Position numbers and translations under genes: made by a program
Notes under the pieces: model-generated
The model's input: only the letters and a program-made list of their open reading frames with translations
What the model was told of the DNA's origin: nothing
Database searches by the model: none
NCBI RefSeq assembly: GCF_002979865.1
Contig: NZ_PCPZ01000002.1
Coordinates: forward strand, 62,001 to 126,000
DNA from: Arthrobacter sp. MYb214
GTDB taxonomy: Bacteria > Actinomycetota > Actinomycetes > Actinomycetales > Micrococcaceae
DNA: 64,000 bases
Reading direction: 5' to 3'
Shown: positions 48,797 through 57,445 of the stretch, piece after piece
Layout: each line of letters opens with the position of its first letter
How positions within the stretch are numbered: position 1 is the first letter of the stretch

Positions 48797-48807
48797 TTGT
48801 TGAACAA
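48797..48807. promoter_or_regulatory. GntR operator copy 1 (TTGTTGAACAA)
   Basis: 11-bp palindrome with a single odd central base, 93 nt before the Nramp-like gene. The same 11-mer (reverse orientation) recurs at 48821-48831 and at 57339-57349 before pxpA. Confidence 0.65.
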
Positions 48808-48820
48808 CCCGTTGCAATAG

Positions 48821-48831
48821 TTGTTCAACAA
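48821..48831. promoter_or_regulatory. GntR operator copy 2 (TTGTTCAACAA)
   Basis: Second copy, 24 nt centre to centre from copy 1 and in reverse orientation, so two FadR-like dimers could sit about two helical turns apart. Confidence 0.65.
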
Positions 48832-48862
48832 CCTGTATTGTCTTGTGCGTTACATTGATTCT

Positions 48863-48876
48863 GTGACAGCTGTCAC
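48863..48876. promoter_or_regulatory. Perfect 14-bp palindrome GTGACAGCTGTCAC
   Basis: Lies 24 nt before the ATG of the Nramp-like gene, near where transcription should start. Different sequence from the 11-bp repeats, so it may bind another regulator. Confidence 0.4.
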
Positions 48877-48899
48877 CACTATCGCATTGGAACGTCATC

Positions 48900-50117
48900 A
48901 TGGCACTTCCTGAGTCAACATCCCAAAGCAGCAAGGCGCGGCGCACGGCGCTCCTAGGCGCCATGTTCCTGATGGCCACCAGCGCCATCGGACCGGGCTT
49001 CATCACCCAAACCACAGAATTCACGGTCCAAATTGGCGCGGCCTTCGCCTTCGCCATTGTCGTCTCCATCCTTGTGGACATCGCGGTCCAGCTGAACGTC
49101 TGGCGCGTGATCGGGGTATCCGGAATGCGTGCCCAGGAACTGGGCAACAAAGTCGTCCCTGGCATCGGTTGGGTACTGGCCGCACTGGTATTCATCGGCG
49201 GCATGGTCTTCAATATCGGCAATATCGCCGGCACTGGCCTGGGCCTGAACGCCATGCTGGGTGTTGATGCCAAAATTGGCGGCGCCATCTCCGCGGCCAT
49301 CGCCATTCTGGTCTTCCTGTCAAAGAAAGCCGGCATGGCATTGGACCGCATTGTGGTGATGCTGGGAGCCGTCATGATCCTGCTGATGCTGTACGTGGCA
49401 ATTGTCGCCGCCCCACCGGTGGGCGATGCGATCCGCAACGTGGTGCTCCCCGAGAAGATCGATTTCTTGATCATCACCACCCTGATCGGCGGCACCGTTG
49501 GCGGCTACATCACCTACGCCGGCGCCCACCGCATGATCGATTCGGGCACATCGGGCGTGGAGCATGTCAAGTCGATCTCCAACATCTCGACCCTGGCAAT
49601 CATCGTCACCGGTGTCATGCGCGTGCTGCTCTTCCTGGCGATCCTCGGCGTTGTGGCTGGCGGCGTAGCGCTGACCAGCGACAACAAGGCTGCCGAAGCT
49701 TTCGGCCACGCCGCCGGCCCCATCGGCATCCGTGCTTTCGGCATCATCCTCTGGGCTGCCGCGCTGACCAGTGTGATCGGTGCCGCCTACACTTCGGTTT
49801 CCTTCATCACCAAGCGCACCACACCGGAGCGCACCCGCAACCTGATCACCGTGGCTTTCATCGTGGTCTGCGGGATCATCTACCTGTTCCTGGGCAAGGC
49901 GCCGGCAACCCTGCTGATCTTCGCCGGAGCCTTCAACGGTCTGATCCTTCCTGTGGGCTTCGCAGTACTGCTCTGGGTCGCATGGCGCCGCCGCGACCTG
50001 ATGAACGGATACAACTACCCCAAGGCCCTGCTGGTCATCGGTGCCTTGACCTGGCTGCTCAGCGTCTACCTCGGCTGGAACTCGATTTCGGGTCTGGCAG
50101 CCCTCTGGAACGGCTAG
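48900..50117 (+). CDS. Nramp-superfamily transporter lacking the metal-site motif
   Basis: 405 aa, eleven membrane helices of the LeuT-like Nramp fold. The unwound part of TM1, DPGN in metal transporters, reads AIGPGFITQTTEF here, and the TM6 A/M-P-H motif is replaced by GGYITYAGAHRM. Metal transport is therefore unlikely; the protein belongs with Nramp-related carriers seen next to DUF1445 and 5-oxoprolinase genes. 13 nt separate it from the DUF1445 gene, so the two form one operon. Substrate may be 5-oxoproline or another amino acid derivative; this is inference. Confidence 0.85.
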   Translation: MALPESTSQSSKARRTALLGAMFLMATSAIGPGFITQTTEFTVQIGAAFAFAIVVSILVDIAVQLNVWRVIGVSGMRAQELGNKVVPGIGWVLAALVFIGGMVFNIGNIAGTGLGLNAMLGVDAKIGGAISAAIAILVFLSKKAGMALDRIVVMLGAVMILLMLYVAIVAAPPVGDAIRNVVLPEKIDFLIITTLIGGTVGGYITYAGAHRMIDSGTSGVEHVKSISNISTLAIIVTGVMRVLLFLAILGVVAGGVALTSDNKAAEAFGHAAGPIGIRAFGIILWAAALTSVIGAAYTSVSFITKRTTPERTRNLITVAFIVVCGIIYLFLGKAPATLLIFAGAFNGLILPVGFAVLLWVAWRRRDLMNGYNYPKALLVIGALTWLLSVYLGWNSISGLAALWNG

Positions 50118-50130
50118 GAGCCAAGCAATC

Positions 50131-50940
50131 ATGAAGGACCTGAAGAGTCTCGGGCATTCCGAACGTGCGGCGATGGCCCCAAGCGAAGCCCGCGAATTGT
50201 TCCGTGCCGGGCAGGTGCTGCCTACCGCCGGGATCAGCGCTGGATATGCGCAGGCAAATCTGATCATCGTTCCCCAGGAGCTGGCCTTCGATGTGCTGCT
50301 CTTTGCCCAGCGCAATCCCAAGTCCTGCCCGATCCTCGGTGTCCTGGAGGCGGGGCAGACCAGCAACGAGTTGCTGGCAGGCGGGGACATCCGTACCGAC
50401 GTGCCGAAGTACATGGTTTACGAAAACGGGGTCAAGGTGGATGAGCCCACCGACCTGTCAGAGTACTGGCGGGATGATCTGGTGACCTTCATTGTCGGCT
50501 GCTCGTTCACCTTCGAGAGCGCACTGATGGAAAGCGGCATTTCCATCGCGCATATCGACCAGGGCGTGAACGTGCCAATGTACAAGACCAATATCCGCTC
50601 GCAGTCGGCCGGAGCGATGTCCGGTCCGATGGTGGTCTCCATGCGTCCGATTCCTGCCTCGCAGGTTGCCGACGCGGTACGCATTACCTCGCGCTATCCA
50701 GCTGTGCACGGGGCTCCAGTGCATATCGGGAACCCCCAAGAGCTGGGCATAGCAGATCTGGGGTCACCTGACTTCGGAGATGCAGTGCAGATCCCGGAAG
50801 GGACGATTCCGGTGTTCTGGGCCTGCGGCGTCACGCCGCAGGCAGCAGTGATGGAGTCCCGCCCGGCCTTGGCCATCGGCCACGCACCGGGGCACATGCT
50901 CATCACGGATATCAGGGATTCCCAATACCAGGTTCCCTAG
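50131..50940 (+). CDS. DUF1445 putative hydro-lyase (YcsI; D-glutamate cyclase-like)
   Basis: 269 aa. Family motifs: PTAGISAGYAQANLIIVP, FIVGCSFTFESALMESGI, VNVPMYKTN, GPMVVSMRPIP, HIGNPQELGI and PVFWACGVTPQAA. The mammalian mitochondrial relative DGLUCY interconverts D-glutamate and 5-oxo-D-proline, and bacterial copies lie beside pxp genes. AGGAG lies 10 nt before the ATG. Co-transcribed with the Nramp-like gene and probably under the same GntR regulator as pxpA. Confidence 0.88.
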   Translation: MKDLKSLGHSERAAMAPSEARELFRAGQVLPTAGISAGYAQANLIIVPQELAFDVLLFAQRNPKSCPILGVLEAGQTSNELLAGGDIRTDVPKYMVYENGVKVDEPTDLSEYWRDDLVTFIVGCSFTFESALMESGISIAHIDQGVNVPMYKTNIRSQSAGAMSGPMVVSMRPIPASQVADAVRITSRYPAVHGAPVHIGNPQELGIADLGSPDFGDAVQIPEGTIPVFWACGVTPQAAVMESRPALAIGHAPGHMLITDIRDSQYQVP

Positions 50941-50950
50941 CACATAGACC

Positions 50951-51053
50951 GAACGGGGCGGCCTCACCCCAAGGGGGCCGCCAAGTTCCCACCAGGGCCT
51001 TTGGCACTGGATCGAACGCGGTGGCCTTCCCCCAAGAGGCCGCCGCGTTCCCA
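50951..51053. terminator. Duplicated terminator hairpin, two tandem copies
   Basis: Two direct copies of about 40 nt (50951-50991 and 51014-51053) share the frame GAACG.GG.GGCC...CCCCAAG...CCGCC..GTTCCCA. Each folds into a hairpin; the second pairs GAACGCGGTGGCC with GGCCGCCGCGTTC almost perfectly. They lie between the convergent DUF1445 and adenine deaminase genes. Confidence 0.75.
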
Positions 51054-51056
51054 TGT

Positions 51057-52052
51057 CTAAAGGCTTTGCCGCTGAACCCAGGCCTGGACTTCGGCAAGCA
51101 GTACCTGCTTGGATTCTTCATTCAGGAATGCGGATTCAAAGGAATTCCTTGCCAGCGTAGCCAGCTGCCCGGTGCTGAAGTTGAAGCTTGCCATGAGCGA
51201 GGCAAAATTGGCATCCATGTATCCGCCGAAATAGGCAGGATCATCGGAATGCACCGAAACCTTCAGGCCCTTTTCGAGCATCTGCGGCAACGGATGATCG
51301 GCCATGGTGTCCACCGCACGCAAGCGGATGTTGGATAGCGGGCAGACAGTCAAAGGCATCTGCTCGTCGACCAAGCGCTGAACCAGCGTCGGGTCGTCCA
51401 GGCAACGGATGCCGTGGTCCACGCGCTCAACCTCCAGCAAGTCCAGCGCCTGCCAAATGTAGTCAGCAGGGCCTTCCTCGCCCGCATGGGCAACGACGTG
51501 CAGGCCGTGGGCGCGGGCATAGGCAAAGACTTCCTGGAACAGCTCGGGCGGGAAACCCACCTCCGAGGAATCCAGGCCGATGCCATCGATATCGTGCTTC
51601 TCGGCGACCAGCACCTTCATCAAGTCCATCGCTTCTTCCGCTGGGGCATGGCGCCAGAAGCACGCGATGAGCTTGTGGGAGATCCCCCAGCGTTCTGCGC
51701 CCTCGGCCAGACCGGAACGGATGCCGGCGATGACCTCGCCCAGGCCCAGTCCGCGCTGGATGTGAGCCTGCGGATCGAAGAACAATTCCACATGGCGCAC
51801 GCCGGAGTCATGGGCGCGCTGCAGGTAGGCCACGGTGATTTCGTGGAAGTCTCCAGCGGTGCGCAAGACCGCCATATTCGCATAGAACAGGTCGAGGAAG
51901 GACTGCAGATTGCTGAACTGGTACTTGGCACGCAGCTGGTCAACGGTGGCATAGGGCAGCTCAACACCGTTTTTTGCCGCCAGCGCCATGATCATTTCTG
52001 GCTCCAGCGTTCCCTCAAGGTGGATGTGCAATTCGGCTACAGGCAATTTCAC
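51057..52052 (-). CDS. Adenosine/adenine deaminase family, probably adenine deaminase
   Basis: 331 aa from GTG at 52052 with GGAAGG upstream (a TTG at 52118 would add 22 residues but has no ribosome site). Zinc-dependent deaminase: HIHLEGT (metal His pair), HAGEEG (His-Glu), SNIRL, and HSDDPAYFGGY. The last motif is the type found in adenine deaminases (Aah1-like) rather than adenosine deaminases, which keep T/ND at that site. It would convert adenine to hypoxanthine in purine salvage. Regulation is unrelated to the pxp genes as far as seen. Confidence 0.85.
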   Translation of the reverse strand: MKLPVAELHIHLEGTLEPEMIMALAAKNGVELPYATVDQLRAKYQFSNLQSFLDLFYANMAVLRTAGDFHEITVAYLQRAHDSGVRHVELFFDPQAHIQRGLGLGEVIAGIRSGLAEGAERWGISHKLIACFWRHAPAEEAMDLMKVLVAEKHDIDGIGLDSSEVGFPPELFQEVFAYARAHGLHVVAHAGEEGPADYIWQALDLLEVERVDHGIRCLDDPTLVQRLVDEQMPLTVCPLSNIRLRAVDTMADHPLPQMLEKGLKVSVHSDDPAYFGGYMDANFASLMASFNFSTGQLATLARNSFESAFLNEESKQVLLAEVQAWVQRQSL

Positions 52053-52117
52053 GGGTGGTGCGACCTTCCAAGCAGGGGACGAGGGCCTAGGCCGTGATGA
52101 AACGGCGGTGGCGTGCA

Positions 52118-52135
52118 ATGGTTTCGTTAAACCAT
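52118..52135. promoter_or_regulatory. Palindrome ATGGTTT-CGTT-AAACCAT
   Basis: Perfect 7-bp arms with a 4-nt gap, 66 nt upstream of the proposed adenine deaminase start on the minus strand. Likely operator or part of the promoter. Confidence 0.45.
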
Positions 52136-52447
52136 ACGTTGGCTATCTATGTGCTTGCTTGGTTTGTCCGTGCGTCGAGGAAACCCGCAGGGCGCTGGGC
52201 TTGCGGCTGTCCGCACCGGCAGGCAGGCGGCGGCGATAGCATCAAGGATCCGGAAAAACCGGTGATCGCAGTGGAAATTCCGCGGGGCAAACCCGGATTC
52301 GGCGTCTGGGGCATCCGTGGAAAACGAGGGTGCACAACCCGATGAGGCAAGCGCTGGAGGCTGGCATTTGCCGCAGAGCAGTGAGGAATGCACGGCGCGG
52401 ATGAGATGGAAATCGCAAGCGGCATGGGCCAAGGCCCTGCTCCATGC
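52136..52447. other. Intergenic region without supported genes
   Basis: About 310 nt between the gntR stop and the adenine deaminase promoter. Frames are open on several phases but have no ribosome site or recognisable motif. I see no transfer RNA or repeat. Confidence 0.45.
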
Positions 52448-53122
52448 CTACTCCGGGCGTTGGGCGATGTGGCTGAGCAATTCAGCTTCAGCGGTGTCGA
52501 GATAGCCGCGCAGGGTCTGGGCGGCTTCCAGGCGCTTTCCGGCGCGGAGCATGGCCAGCAGATTCGCATTGCGTTCTACGTAGTGCGAATGGAAATCCGG
52601 GGCGTCGCTCATGGCGTGGAAGACCAGGCGCATACGAGCCAGCACGCGGCTCATCAGCTCCTGGAGCAGTTCGCTATCGGAGGAGGCCACCAGCTGCTTG
52701 TGGAAAGCCTGATTGGCATTGGCCATCCGCGGCACGTCGCCGGCAGCCAGACCTGTGCGAGCCTCCTCGATGATTTTGCCCAACCGGTCCAGATCAATGT
52801 CTTGGCCCCATGCCAGGCATGCAGGCTCGACCGTGCGGCGCACCGCATAGATTTCCCGCACATCATCAGCATCCGGAGAAGCCACGAAAACACCCCGGTT
52901 GGGGATCCGGGTGATGATCAGCTCGCTATTGAGCAAGGTGAAGCTCTCGCGCAAGGTATTGCGCGAGAGCCCCAACGATTCAGCCAGGGTCTGTTCGGAA
53001 AGCTTGTCACCGGGCAATAGCTCGCCTTCGGCAATGCGGCGGCGCAGCTCATTGGCAGCCCAGAGCCCGCTGTGCGCGTGAGGGGCCTTGGCTGGATGCG
53101 AGGTGCTGCTGGTGGCTTTCAT
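52448..53122 (-). CDS. GntR family regulator, FadR/FCD subfamily
   Basis: 224 aa. N-terminal winged helix: AANELRRRIAEGELLPGDKLSEQTLAESLGLSRNTLRESFTLLNSELI with the recognition helix SLGLSRNTLRE; the all-helical FCD domain follows (ANQAFHKQLVASS, FHSHYVERNANLLAMLRAG), which in relatives binds small acids, often with metal. It is the last gene after accC-type (52 nt gap). The -10 box TAAATT at 53129-53134, 6 nt before the ATG, suggests an extra leaderless promoter. Best candidate to bind the TTGTTSAACAA sites before both pxpA and the Nramp-like gene. Confidence 0.9.
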   Translation of the reverse strand: MKATSSTSHPAKAPHAHSGLWAANELRRRIAEGELLPGDKLSEQTLAESLGLSRNTLRESFTLLNSELIITRIPNRGVFVASPDADDVREIYAVRRTVEPACLAWGQDIDLDRLGKIIEEARTGLAAGDVPRMANANQAFHKQLVASSDSELLQELMSRVLARMRLVFHAMSDAPDFHSHYVERNANLLAMLRAGKRLEAAQTLRGYLDTAEAELLSHIAQRPE

Positions 53123-53128
53123 GCTTCC

Positions 53129-53134
53129 AATTTA
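53129..53134 (-). promoter_or_regulatory. Leaderless -10 of gntR
   Basis: Minus-strand TAAATT, 6 nt before the ATG at 53122. A GGAAG lies inside the 6-nt gap, too close for a normal ribosome site. Confidence 0.4.
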
Positions 53135-53174
53135 TCCCAACTGGCTTGCGGGTACGGACTTCATGGCCTGGACG

Positions 53175-54914
53175 CTAGCCGATGGTGCCCAAGGTGTCGC
53201 CGCGGCGTACGGCTGACCCTGCGCTCAAGTCCGCTGCACGGAAGATGCCATCACGGTGCGCGGTGATGGTGGATTCCATCTTCATCGCCTCGACGATGGC
53301 AATGCTCTGCCCTTCGGCGACTGCACTGCCATCTTCTGCAGCGAAGCGGACGAGGTTCCCGTCCATGGTGCTGGGTACCGCGGCGGCATCGACCTCGCCG
53401 GCAGCATCATCCTGGGTGGCGGCGGCGGTGCCGGCTCCGGGGGTATTGCGCAACGCGTTGGTCAGTGCAGCGGGAAGACCCAGCTGGACGGCCTTGCCAT
53501 CGAGCTCTATGGTGATGGTTTCACGGCTGGTATCGCGCTGGTCCAGATCCATCTCGTCGCTGGCCTCCACCTCGTTGAGGAACTCGTCCTCGATCCATGT
53601 GGTGTAGACGCCCAGGGATTCGCCGTTGAACGCTTCGTGCTCGATGACGGCGCGGTGGAATGGCAGGACCGTAGGTACACCGGCAATGCTGATTTCTTCC
53701 AGCGCCAGGCGGGCACGGCGCAACGCCTGGTTCCGGTCGGCACCGCGCACAATCAGCTTGGCAATCATCGAGTCGTAGAACGGCGGAATGACCGAGCCGC
53801 TACGGACCCCTGAGTCCACGCGCACGCCGGCGCCGGTTGGCGCTTCGAACCGCTCCACGGTGCCGGGCGCAGGCAGGAAGCCGCGAGCCGGATCCTCGGC
53901 ATTGATGCGGAATTCGATGGCATGGCCGGTAGGCTGCGGGTCCTCGGTAATGGACAACGGCAGGCCATCGGCAATGCGGAACTGCTCGGCCACCAGATCG
54001 ACGCCGGAAGTCTCCTCGGTGATCGGGTGCTCCACCTGCAAACGGGTATTGACTTCCAAGAAGGAGATCAACCCGTCCTGGGCCACCAGGTATTCCACGG
54101 TGCCGGCCCCGACATATCCGGCTTCCTTGCAGATCGCCTTCGCGGACTCGTGGATCCTGGTCCGCTGCTCATCGGTCAAGAACGGGGCAGGCGCCTCTTC
54201 CACCAGCTTCTGGTGGCGGCGCTGCAAGGAGCAGTCGCGGGTGCCGACGACCACCACATTGCCGTGGGTATCGGCCAGCACCTGGGCCTCGACGTGGCGC
54301 GGCTTGGCCAGGAAACGTTCCACGAAGCACTCGCCACGGCCAAAGGCCACGGTGGCCTCGCGGGTGGCGGACTCGAAAGCATCGGAGATCTCATCGAGCG
54401 AGTAGGCGATCTTGATGCCGCGGCCACCGCCGCCGAAGGCCGCCTTGATGGCGACCGGCACGCCGTACTCTTCAGCGAAGGCCCGCACCTCGCCGGCGTC
54501 CGCTGCCGGGCCGTCGGTGCCCGGGGCCAGCGGCGCACCTGCGCGCACCGCGATCTGCCGGGCCGTGACCTTGTTGCCCAGTGCTTCGATGGCCGCGGGA
54601 GGCGGACCAATCCAGCTCATGCCGGCTTCGATGACGGCGGTGGCGAAGTTCGCGTTCTCCGAGAGGAAACCGTAGCCGGGGTGCACCGCATCGGCGCCGC
54701 AGCGCTTGGCAATCTCGATGATCTTCTCGATATCCAGGTAGGTGTCCGCACCGGTGGAACCGTGCAGCGGGTACGCTTCATCTGCGCGGCGCACGTGCAG
54801 GGCGTCGGCATCCGGGTCCGAGTAGATGGCTACCGACGAAATATTTGCGTCGGTGGCCGCCCGGGCAATGCGGACCGCGATTTCGCCTCGGTTGGCGATG
54901 AGAACTTTTTTCAT
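53175..54914 (-). CDS. Biotin carboxylase fused to biotin carboxyl carrier domain
   Basis: 579 aa. Residues 1-445 are a biotin carboxylase: [29 protein letters not shown], the Gly-rich [31 protein letters not shown] and RINAEDP. Residues 510-579 are a BCCP domain whose biotinyl Lys is in VEAMKMES. It uses ATP and bicarbonate to form carboxybiotin. No AccD/PccB-type carboxyltransferase is present; the neighbour PxpBC belongs to the fold class of biotin-dependent carboxyltransferase/allophanate hydrolase proteins, and lies 9 nt upstream. It is probably dedicated to that enzyme, not to fatty acid synthesis. Confidence 0.92.
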
Positions 54915-54923
54915 GGCAATTCC

Positions 54924-56528
54924 TTAGGCGTCTGATGCCGCGTGGCTGGCAGCGGGATGGAGTTCGAATCGAATTCTGCTTCCGGGCGGAAGCTGCGCGG
55001 CTGCGCTGAGATCTTCGGCAATGACGGTGGCGATCACCGGATAGCCGCCGGTGACCGGGTGATCTGCGAGGAACAGCACCGGCAGGCCGGAGGGCGGCAC
55101 CTGCAAGGATCCGCGGGCTACGCCTTCACTGGCCAGTTCCCCGGAGCGGACGCGCTGCAGCGGCTGCTGCCCGGTATCCAGGCGTACACCCACGCGGTTG
55201 GATTCGCTGGTGACATCCCAAATCTGGGCGGCGAGCTGGTCCAGGCCCGCCTGGCCAAACCAATCGGCACGCGGACCGGGCATGGCGCGCAGCGTGTACA
55301 CGCCGTTATCGTCTGGGACCGGCAGGGTGCTCGGTTCGCTGTTGCCAACGATGTGGCCCAGATACGGGCGGTTCACCGGCAGCAAGCCACCGGCTTGCAA
55401 AGGCTGGGGACCGACTCCGGAAAGGGTGTCGGTAGACAGCGAGCCGAGGACCGGTTCCTGCTCGATGGTGCCGCGCACCGCAAGGTAGCTGCGCAGCCCG
55501 CGGCCGGCGGGTTCAACCTCCAGGCGCTCGCCGTGCAGCAGCGCGAACGGTGCATTGGCCGCGGCCTGGCGCGGGGTGCGGACCTGGTCGTCTTCGGCCG
55601 GGGTGATCCAGAGTTCTGCTTCGGCGCCGGTGAGCGCCAGCACTTGGTCTTGCTCGGCTTCAACGGTGATGCGGCTGCCGAGGTTCTCGATCACGGCTTG
55701 GCCTGGTTGGTTGCCCACCAGGCGGTTGGCCTGGTGGAAGGCGGCCGGGTCTGCGGCTCCTGCGACGCCAACTCCGAGGTTGCCATAGCCGATGCGTCCG
55801 GCATCCTGGAGCAGGGACTGCAGGCCGGCGTCGATGATTCTCAGGCCACCGGCAAGTGCCTGCCCTGATGCTTCGTCTTGTGCGGCGGGTGCCTGGCTCA
55901 CCGATATTTTCCGGGTGGCCCGGACGAACTGCACGGTATCCTGCGGCCGGATCAATGCAGGATTTTCGCGCTGCAAATCCCACATTTGCAGATCGGTATG
56001 TCCAATCAGCTGCCAGCCTCCGGGGGATTGGCGCGGATAGACGGCCGAGTACTCACCGGCGAGCGCCACCGCTCCGGCGGGCACCTTGGTGCGCGGGGAG
56101 TCTCTGCGCGGGACATGCAAGTCCTGGTTTTCGCCGAGCAGATAGGCGAAGCCGGGAGCGAATCCGCCAAATACTGCACGCCACCTCTGGCTGGTGTGCG
56201 CATTGATCACAGCTTCGGTGCTCAGCCCGGTCAGCCCGGCCACGGCGGCGAGGTCTTCGCCATCGTAATTCACTGGTACTTCAACCAGCTTGCCCGCAGC
56301 GTGGAGTGCATAAGCTACTTCAAGTTCTGGCAGTGCTGCCATGGCCCGTTCGGCGCTCTGCGCGGAATCGAATTTCAGCAGTACCGTTTGCGCGGCGGCC
56401 AAGAGGTCGCGCTGTCCGGACAGGGGAGAGGTTTCCAAGGCGGCGTTGAGCGCCAAGACAGCATCGAGCGAGTCCAGGTCGATAAGCAGATCATGGGAAC
56501 CTGCCCGGTGAATGGCGCGGATGCTCAC
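54924..56528 (-). CDS. PxpB-PxpC fusion (KipI-KipA; 5-oxoprolinase subunits B and C)
   Basis: 534 aa, fusing two proteins that are separate in E. coli. PxpB/KipI part (about 1-210): [41 protein letters not shown] split around the conserved [10 protein letters not shown], and [10 protein letters not shown]. PxpC/KipA part (about 225-534): [42 protein letters not shown] and [11 protein letters not shown]. With PxpA they hydrolyse 5-oxoproline to glutamate using ATP. Starts 4 nt inside pxpA (translational coupling). The same domains occur in urea carboxylase, supporting a link to the biotin carboxylase gene downstream. Confidence 0.92.
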
Positions 56529-57283
56529 GCGAAGCTCCGGATCTGCACGCCGGCATGTTCCAGTCCTGCGCGCACGGCGCTGGCCATGGCCACTGCACCG
56601 GCAGTATCCCCGTGCAGGCAGATGCTCTCGGCTTCCATCTTGATGGTGCTGCCGTCCACGGCAACAATGGTGCCTTCGGTGGCCAGGCGGACCATGTTCT
56701 CGGTGACCTGCGCGGGGTCGTGCAATACGGCGTTGGATTCGCGGCGGGAGACCAGGGTGCCCTCGGGGGTGTAGTTGCGGTCGGCGAAGGCTTCTGCGAC
56801 GCCGCGCAGGCCAGCGGCTTCGGCCTTTTGCAGGGCGAGAGAACCTGGCAGCAGCAGGACCGGCAGGTCGGTGCCGAAGGCCTTGATGGCATCGATGACG
56901 GACTGGGCATGCACCTGGTGGTGCACGATGGTGTTGTACAGGGCGCCGTGCGGCTTGACGTACTTGATTTCGCTGCCTGCGGCGCGTGCCAGGGCTTGCA
57001 GGGCTCCAAGCTGGTAGAGGACGTCATCGGCCAATTCGGTGGCCGAGCAGTCCAGGAAGCGGCGGCCGAAACCGGCCAGGTCGCGGTAGCCCACATGGGC
57101 TCCGATGGTGACGTTGGCGCTGACCGCATCGCGGCAGGTCTGGGCGATGGTGCTGGGGTCTCCAGCGTGGAACCCGCAAGCTACATTGGCCGAAGACACG
57201 GAGGTGAAGATGGCGGCGTCGTCGCCCATCGTCCAGTTGCCGAACGACTCGCCTACGTCTGAATTCAGGTCTATGTATGGCAT
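56525..57283 (-). CDS. pxpA: 5-oxoprolinase subunit A (LamB/YcsF family)
   Basis: 252 aa from ATG at 57283 (GGGGA at 6-nt spacing); the frame continues to 57406 but those residues do not fit the family. PxpA opens the ring of 5-oxoproline together with PxpB/C. Motifs: [56 protein letters not shown] and [14 protein letters not shown]. First gene of the operon pxpA-pxpBC-biotin carboxylase-gntR. An operator copy lies 56 nt before the start. Confidence 0.95.
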
Positions 57284-57338
57284 TGTGATCCCCGTCTCGT
57301 GAAAACCTCTTGGTAAAAGAATGCCCCACTTTCGGTAA

Positions 57339-57349
57339 TTGTTCAACAA
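57339..57349. promoter_or_regulatory. GntR operator copy 3 (TTGTTCAACAA)
   Basis: Identical to copy 2 at 48821 and reverse complement of copy 1 at 48797. It lies 56-66 nt before pxpA on the minus strand, between the pxpA start and the terminator of the small upstream gene. Confidence 0.65.
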
Positions 57350-57445
57350 TCTTGGCAGGGTTTTTGAGCATCGCTTCCCGGAGTTCCGCTGGAGTGGTGC
57401 TCCCATCTGTCATCTGATCAGGCATTTTGCACGTGGAATAGCAAA

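Follow-up and report, generated by a model that had tools for sequence, protein, structure and literature searches.

The PxpABC proteins have been described as the 5-oxoprolinase of most analysed prokaryote genomes, and in Corynebacterium glutamicum, according to the available sections of the same report, the GntR repressor PxpR acts at agattgttcaacaatct before pxpTABC (PMC13274462). Mutation or deletion of this site, for which an earlier RegPrecise prediction existed, raised reporter expression 6.5-fold, PxpR bound 5-oxoproline with a KD of 726 nM (the measured ligand being 5-oxo-L-proline) and both pxpT and pxpABC were required for growth on 5-oxoproline (PMC13274462). The stretch of 64,000 nucleotides of Arthrobacter sp. 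MYb214 analysed here (contig NZ_PCPZ01000002.1, positions 62,001 to 126,000, hereafter the window) contains a locus which is very probably a PxpR-type regulon for the utilisation of 5-oxoproline (pyroglutamate). It has two convergent units, one with the genes of an Nramp-superfamily transporter and of a D-glutamate cyclase family protein and the other with pxpA, a fused pxpBC, a gene for a fusion of biotin carboxylase and biotin carboxyl carrier protein (BC-BCCP, its gene being called BC below) and a pxpR-like gntR gene, so that BC-BCCP would be a co-regulated member. The core of this regulon, namely regulator, operator and pathway, is of the kind already described in C. glutamicum. As far as could be searched, the biotin carboxylase-carrier gene is the new part within the open-licence PubMed Central literature, in which no link of such a gene to PxpABC was found.

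The 11-mer TTGTTGAACAA occurs in three exact copies in the window (Table 1), where a mean of 0.02 copies is expected and where none of 100 shuffles gave three, and the whole genome of the strain (3,723,429 bases in 19 contigs) holds it only at those three positions. An initial annotation of this DNA had reported the palindrome once as such and twice as its reverse complement, with two copies before the transporter unit, one before the pxpA unit and no further copy in the window, and had named a common occurrence across the genome as a result that would speak against a regulon. All these positions were borne out and the count in 3.72 Mb is three. Except at the odd centre base, where there is one mismatch, each site is its own reverse complement, and a longer inverted repeat encloses it, the flanks of 94 sites selected by their exact core giving about ggATTGTTCAACAATcc, with the outer two letters per side being weak. 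The site before pxpA (57336-57352) is equal to the validated C. glutamicum operator in 15 of 17 bases. Judged by eye, operator 2 falls within the spacer of a likely promoter, and a GCAT block kept across the genus closely follows the pxpA operator. Both placements suit a repressor; a promoter scan flagged neither the putative promoter of the transporter unit nor that of pxpA. The spacing of 24 bp between operators 1 and 2 recurs in 24 of the 26 pairs of exact sites less than 60 bp apart among all annotated loci.

Across the genus (18 genomes, our strain included) the operator before pxpA is present in every genome and the pair 24 bp apart before the transporter in 17, genome G430 being the one with the pxpA site only. 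The 14-bp block GATTGTTGAACAAT is invariant in the 18 rows before pxpA, where the upstream DNA for the most part cannot be aligned, and both transporter-side sites are kept, centre base aside, in all 17 aligned rows (the window and 16 congeners).

Beyond the genus, three sets of loci were annotated: 40 with pxpA from the order, 80 named ones with pxpA, and 40 PxpR-like ones from the class. The order and named loci form the main sample of 120 pxpA loci, no two with identical PxpA, to which counts refer unless another set is given. The strict operator was present in 50 of the 62 loci with a PxpR-like gene (PxpR+) and in 3 of the 58 without one (PxpR-), and the relaxed form TYGTTSAACRA in 59/62 against 3/58. 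The relaxed form was drawn after inspection of the loci that failed the strict one, which tells against its higher count, and the strict counts are therefore the unbiased ones. It has two more matches in the genome of our strain, both within open reading frames (ORFs). Reversed and permuted control patterns gave no upstream match in any locus group, and this result and the three genome copies led us to reject a chance origin of the 11-mer. In the class loci the relaxed site was found in 26 and the strict one in 12 of the 27 with pxpA, the other 13 of the 40 having no pxpA in view and being left out of the operator count. A PxpA tree of 148 rows gave 12 independent pairs with a difference in PxpR, and the operator changed in the same direction in 9.6 of them on average, in the opposite direction in 0.0 and not at all in 2.4 (median p 0.002). 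The operator also stands between the regulator and the pxp operon in loci of Pseudomonas, Comamonadaceae, Rhizobium, Bartonella and Cedecea, and the pairing of operator and PxpR is thus present in Proteobacteria too. The window layout, with pxpA-pxpBC-BC-pxpR facing cyclase-Nramp and operators before each unit, recurs in loci L034, L042 and L061 and in named Arthrobacter and Cryobacterium loci. Sixteen of the 27 class loci with pxpA also hold an Nramp-like gene, mostly in an Nramp-pxpA-pxpB-pxpC(-cyclase) operon divergent from pxpR.

The exceptions to this pairing are few. The PxpR+ loci without the relaxed operator are L066, L157 and L044, the latter with a near match 64 bp before pxpA, and the loci with the operator and no regulator in view are L183, L200 and L197. 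In L183 and L200 the contig ends about where the regulator would sit; L197, not cut off on the side examined, looks like a true exception. These three loci, along with the general similarity of GntR/FCD operators, among which short TTGT..ACAA cores are common, might suggest that the palindrome belongs to another regulator and that its presence at both units is due to chance or to a promoter feature. This explanation, already disfavoured, is extremely improbable in view of the three sites in the genome of our strain, the close tracking of the PxpR-like gene by the relaxed operator, its persistence over independent tree pairs and the validation in C. glutamicum of a PxpR site with the same core. 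The genome search for co-occurrence of the families and the operator that had been proposed in the initial annotation found the operator to go with the PxpR-like gene. Its proposal of two operons joined in one regulon under the GntR protein gains support, by sequence, from the 17 of 18 genus genomes, the 120 loci, the tree pairs and the validated C. glutamicum core, while the binding of the regulator stays predicted. The placement of both units in one regulon, with the GntR protein as putative regulator, is strongly supported, and it is very probable that pyroglutamate induces the two gene groups jointly, through a single repressor.

By analogy with the C. glutamicum homologues, the GntR protein would repress both units and release them on binding 5-oxoproline, the Nramp-superfamily protein would import this compound, and PxpA and PxpBC would open it to L-glutamate. 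The path from transporter through 5-oxoproline to glutamate that had been envisaged at first fits this homologous system. The window regulator carries GntR and FCD domains by Pfam and is linked to the pxp genes, its likeness to C. glutamicum cg1143 being judged by domains and linkage.

The BC gene was found in 59 of the 120 loci, with 51 of the 62 PxpR+ loci and 8 of the 58 PxpR- loci having it. It is on the pxpC strand in 59/59, and in 56 of these its start lies between -60 and 150 bp relative to the pxpC ORF end (the others being L145, L183 and L220). The pxpB and pxpC genes are fused in all 58 BC loci in which both scored, and in L200 the PxpB part shares the ORF but scores below the limit; without BC the fusion occurs in 19/38 loci, or in 19/64 if the class loci are added. 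None of the 40 class loci has BC. Among the 79 BC proteins of all annotated loci the biotinyl motif is kept in 78, GGGGRG in 79 and one further motif in 77.

For the descent of these proteins a quick tree was made, with 31 pxp-linked BCs together with 22 paralogues from eight genomes. In the free tree the pxp-linked BCs need two label changes, and when held as one clade they give a tree that is 1.93 log units better (p-AU 0.57), a single clade thus not being rejected. They group with actinobacterial AccA3-type paralogues on a branch with support 100*, and 11 proteobacterial pxp-linked BCs fall inside this group, well away from the AccC-type proteins encoded in those genomes. In the PxpBC tree 18 proteobacterial rows form a single clade (98*), to which a Cryobacterium sequence attaches (96*). 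These relationships fit the capture of an AccA3 copy by an actinobacterial operon and a later transfer of the cassette to Proteobacteria, a direction that we infer from trees rooted by midpoint. Among rows with fused pxpBC, all 18 of Proteobacteria and 42 of 61 of Actinobacteria (window included) have BC, which suggests that AccA3-type proteins may stand in for it where they are present, in a comparison affected by bias in the named sample and by relatedness among the rows.

The initial annotation had seen in this gene a biotin-dependent step added to the pathway. BC is very probably co-regulated with the pathway, and its product is better read as a putative partner of PxpBC itself, because BC-BCCP and PxpBC together make up the domain set of urea carboxylase. 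In the mechanism that we propose, BC-BCCP would be dedicated to PxpBC. Its biotin carboxylase would use ATP to carboxylate the attached biotin, from which PxpBC, a carboxyltransferase by family, would transfer the carboxyl group onto the lactam nitrogen in 5-oxoproline; PxpA would then hydrolyse the activated, N-carboxylated ring, with loss of CO2 giving glutamate. Activation by carboxylation from biotin, taken as a point of chemistry alone, is a tentative proposal that we hold at clearly below even chances.

Several results weigh against this chemistry. Phosphorylation of 5-oxoproline by PxpB and PxpC is the assumption in the available sections of the C. glutamicum report, where no BC is named in pxpTABC (PMC13274462). 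BC is absent from 19 of the 61 fused actinobacterial rows, all with more than 7 kb of DNA beyond pxpC, and congener G430 keeps pxpA, pxpBC, pxpR and the operator (L262 8779-11878) in a 14-kb locus from which the Nramp-like, cyclase and BC-BCCP genes are missing. Given these rows, G430 and the C. glutamicum operon, BC would be dispensable unless a housekeeping AccA3-type protein replaces it. The locus of G430 is a natural test of the need for BC; a search of the rest of its genome, made for BC alone, found BC paralogues at no more than 58% identity. Independent tree pairs on supported branches are few (n=4) for BC against PxpR, and likewise n=4 for BC against the pxpB-pxpC fusion. With thresholds set here, no column of PxpB and one weak column of PxpC mark loci with BC off from unfused loci without it, so that both kinds would use biotin or neither does. 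Moreover the window PxpBC stays under the NCBIfam cut-offs for PxpB, PxpC and the urea-amidolyase-related domain (TIGR00370, 132.3 bits under 145.55; NF045499, 173.2 under 500; TIGR00724, 227.4 under 230.2), although it meets Pfam CT_C_D and CT_A_B, and such fused proteins may therefore carry loose names in public annotation.

The same regulon could operate with a PxpABC that phosphorylates 5-oxoproline with ATP and with BC-BCCP as a separate co-regulated carboxylase that borrows another carboxyltransferase, acting for example on an acyl-CoA or keto acid arising from glutamate. We regard this as a serious contender, only somewhat short of an even chance, as it is the mechanism assumed in the literature (PMC13274462) and agrees with the 61 of 120 pxpABC loci without BC, with the patchy and mixed presence of BC among Actinobacteria in the PxpBC tree and with G430. 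It has to be set against the lack of any carboxyltransferase besides PxpBC among the nine window proteins scanned, the constant strand and mostly immediate position of BC behind pxpC in two phyla, and the membership of PxpBC in a carboxyltransferase family almost always devoid of a Walker A motif (found in 0 of 146 PxpC and in 1 of 144 PxpB). A further point is that PDB entry 9yx5, which is among the entries of the top PDB match of the window BC-BCCP (an acyl-CoA carboxylase alpha3 subunit), also holds allophanate hydrolase subunits 1 and 2, which match the window PxpB and PxpC; the entry was judged by chain names, part of its sequence and matches and not by structure. The best relative found of its PxpB-like chain (75% identical) is in Mycobacterium deserti (L316 8836-10409), beside a PxpC-like gene and apart from pxpA. 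Since the Mycobacterium relatives of the pair are separated from pxpA in this way, 9yx5 is no proof of a 5-oxoprolinase, which counts against carboxylation. Searched with this chain, a family (250 genomes) and a genus (40 genomes) gave at most 73% identity over part of its length and otherwise at most 59%, with none at a tighter limit.

Carried further, the carboxylation chemistry would make the PxpABC-type bacterial 5-oxoprolinase in general a biotin enzyme, served by a dedicated BC or by a housekeeping AccA3-type protein, with AccA3 captured in Actinobacteria and passed with repressor and operator to Proteobacteria; this wider view is equally speculative. Component A of the Pseudomonas putida 5-oxoprolinase has been described, in the available part of the source, as consisting of 64 and 51 kDa polypeptides (PMC8453981). 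The window BC-BCCP and PxpBC have estimated masses, from their lengths, of about 61 and 56 kDa, and it is an attractive lead by size that component A might be this pair. The P. putida enzyme is also said to depend on bicarbonate.

Metal transport by Nramp proteins is associated with the motifs DPGN and MPH. Among 75 sampled Nramp-like homologues DPGN was found in none and MPH in one, which speaks for an organic substrate rather than a metal; in their place most have GPGFITQT and GGTVGGYI. The window protein scores 81.4 with Pfam Nramp (cut-off 29.8) and 26.3 bits with NF037982, under the cut-off of 50. It could still be a manganese importer that supplies the metal of PxpA and not a carrier of 5-oxoproline, since Bacillus subtilis YcsG is reported to import Mn, with more Mn in cells that overexpress it, the earlier 5-oxoproline work is noted to have left room for a polar effect on pxpBC (PMC10448178) and PxpA has been called probably metal-dependent (PMC8453981), all according to the available parts of these sources. 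We consider this unlikely for the window protein, given the missing motifs (in a set without comparison to the YcsG sequence) and the NCBIfam metal-transporter cut-offs that are not reached; in addition, C. glutamicum pxpT mutants did not grow on 5-oxoproline and were rescued by pxpT, although in the available sections the authors leave metal transport possible (PMC13274462).

The cyclase family gene is present in 24 of the 62 PxpR+ loci against 7 of the 58 PxpR- loci, and in 22 of the 40 PxpR-like loci of the class; 21 of these 22 have pxpA as well, and in 20 of them the two genes share a strand. The window protein matches its Pfam family, presumably the former DUF1445, with 223.3 bits (cut-off 25), and the corresponding NCBIfam equivalog is named "putative hydro-lyase". 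It probably handles the D-enantiomer, as its family name suggests. On this name also depends the D-glutamate branch of the path drawn at the outset, in which the 5-oxoproline part is the one that found support. That D-glutamate or 5-oxo-D-proline is the true substrate, with the cyclase central and PxpABC secondary, would agree with the distribution of the gene. It is nevertheless distinctly improbable, the cyclase being missing from 38 of the 62 PxpR+ loci, with pxpB and pxpC scoring in 61 of them, and the measured ligand of PxpR being 5-oxo-L-proline (PMC13274462). The examined sections of that report contain no mention found of the D form of 5-oxoproline, and a word search of it gave no "DUF1445" and "biotin" only for a biotin-auxotrophic strain and in one reference title.

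The families of the window genes in Table 1 were assigned with Pfam on the nine proteins scanned. PxpA exceeds the cut-off of NF003814 (358.1 bits over 226), and three equivalog models among its matches listed are all below cut-off. The GTG start of pxpBC overlaps the pxpA stop by 4 bases, the gaps from pxpBC to BC and from BC to gntR are 9 and 52 bases, and gntR closes the second operon, as had been stated from the beginning. An adenosine deaminase gene (51057-52118) starts 329 bp beyond gntR and has no operator of its own; a gene of this kind lies between both units in 13 of 17 congener loci.

Table 1. Features of the predicted PxpR regulon in the window
Feature	Position	Strand	Remarks
PxpR operator 1 before transporter unit (predicted)	48797..48807	+	exact copy; centred 98 bp before Nramp-like ATG (48900)
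Putative promoter, TTGCAA then TGTATT or TATTGT	48812..48841	+	by eye and genus alignment; operator 2 in spacer
PxpR operator 2 (predicted)	48821..48831	-	24 bp from operator 1; centred 74 bp before Nramp-like ATG
Nramp-superfamily transporter, pxpT-like, 405 amino acids	48900..50117	+	Pfam Nramp; without DPGN and MPH metal motifs
D-glutamate cyclase family protein	50131..50940	+	Pfam D-Glu_cyclase PF07286
pxpR-like GntR/FCD regulator, last gene of pxp unit	52448..53122	-	Pfam GntR and FCD
BC-BCCP fusion, 579 amino acids	53175..54914	-	Pfam; biotinyl motif AMKM
Fused PxpB-PxpC, GTG start	54924..56528	-	Pfam CT_C_D and CT_A_B
pxpA, LamB/YcsF family	56525..57283	-	Pfam LamB_YcsF; ATG at 57283, longer ORF opens at 57406
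PxpR operator 3 before pxpA (predicted)	57339..57349	-	centred 61 bp before pxpA ATG (57283)

Further operators were found in some congeners. In G438 and G424, extra exact operators stand 157 and 144 bp before an ORF which we take to be amino-acid permease-like (L321 1994 and L323 1999, the latter with a presumably hemL-like neighbour), and others (L322 2006 and L324 2018) are near an ORF that we read as an IclR-type regulator. The regulon seems to be enlarged in these species. Other exact extra sites, two in G085 and one each in G426 and G432, are in or near unrelated-looking ORFs.

Judged from sequence, the regulon is real and of a known kind. How PxpABC spends ATP has so far been a matter of assumption, and a conserved co-regulated BC offers a concrete rival mechanism: the presence of an own biotin enzyme in the regulon hints that PxpABC may work through biotin-bound CO2 and not as is now assumed. 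In addition, the pairing of operator and PxpR, which spans two phyla, makes it simple to search for bacteria that use pyroglutamate and for candidate sensors of 5-oxoproline.

Among the systems that can be compared with this locus is the pxp operon of B. subtilis, in which we take YcsI to be of the DUF1445 family and KipR of the IclR type and in which, to our knowledge, there is no BC. As described in the available part of the source, this operon, pxpA-ycsG-ycsI-pxpBC-kipR, holds pxpABC together with an Nramp-family gene and ycsI, as the window does over its two units, but is controlled by KipR with AhrC, MntR, CcpA and TnrA whereas the window regulator is of the GntR type (PMC10448178). Urea carboxylase/urea amidolyase (PDB 3va7 and 5i8i) is related to the window BC and to the PxpC part, and its set of biotin carboxylase, carrier and both carboxyltransferase parts is complete in the window, although split over two proteins and linked to PxpA, while urea carboxylase itself is one polypeptide acting on urea. 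Its model TIGR02712 matches both window proteins (525 and 131.4 bits, below the cut-off of 1303.85). In Pseudomonas aeruginosa PA0492 and PA0495-PA0496 are presumably relatives of pxpA and pxpBC. In the same group (PA0492-PA0496), a probable biotin-requiring enzyme (PA0493) and a biotin carboxylase homologue (PA0494) are encoded by separate genes and not by a fusion as in the window, their function being called unknown in PMC6249292 as far as the available parts extend (PMC5521831, PMC6249292). With PxpR/pxpTABC of C. glutamicum, as given in the available sections, the window shares the GntR regulator, the operator core, the Nramp-superfamily transporter and pxpABC; there one operon diverges from pxpR with one operator, in contrast to the two convergent units and three operators found here, and the fused pxpBC, the D-glutamate cyclase family gene and the BC-BCCP gene are extra in the window (PMC13274462). 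With its two units, three operators and dedicated biotin carboxylase, the window locus is a variant of a known regulon.

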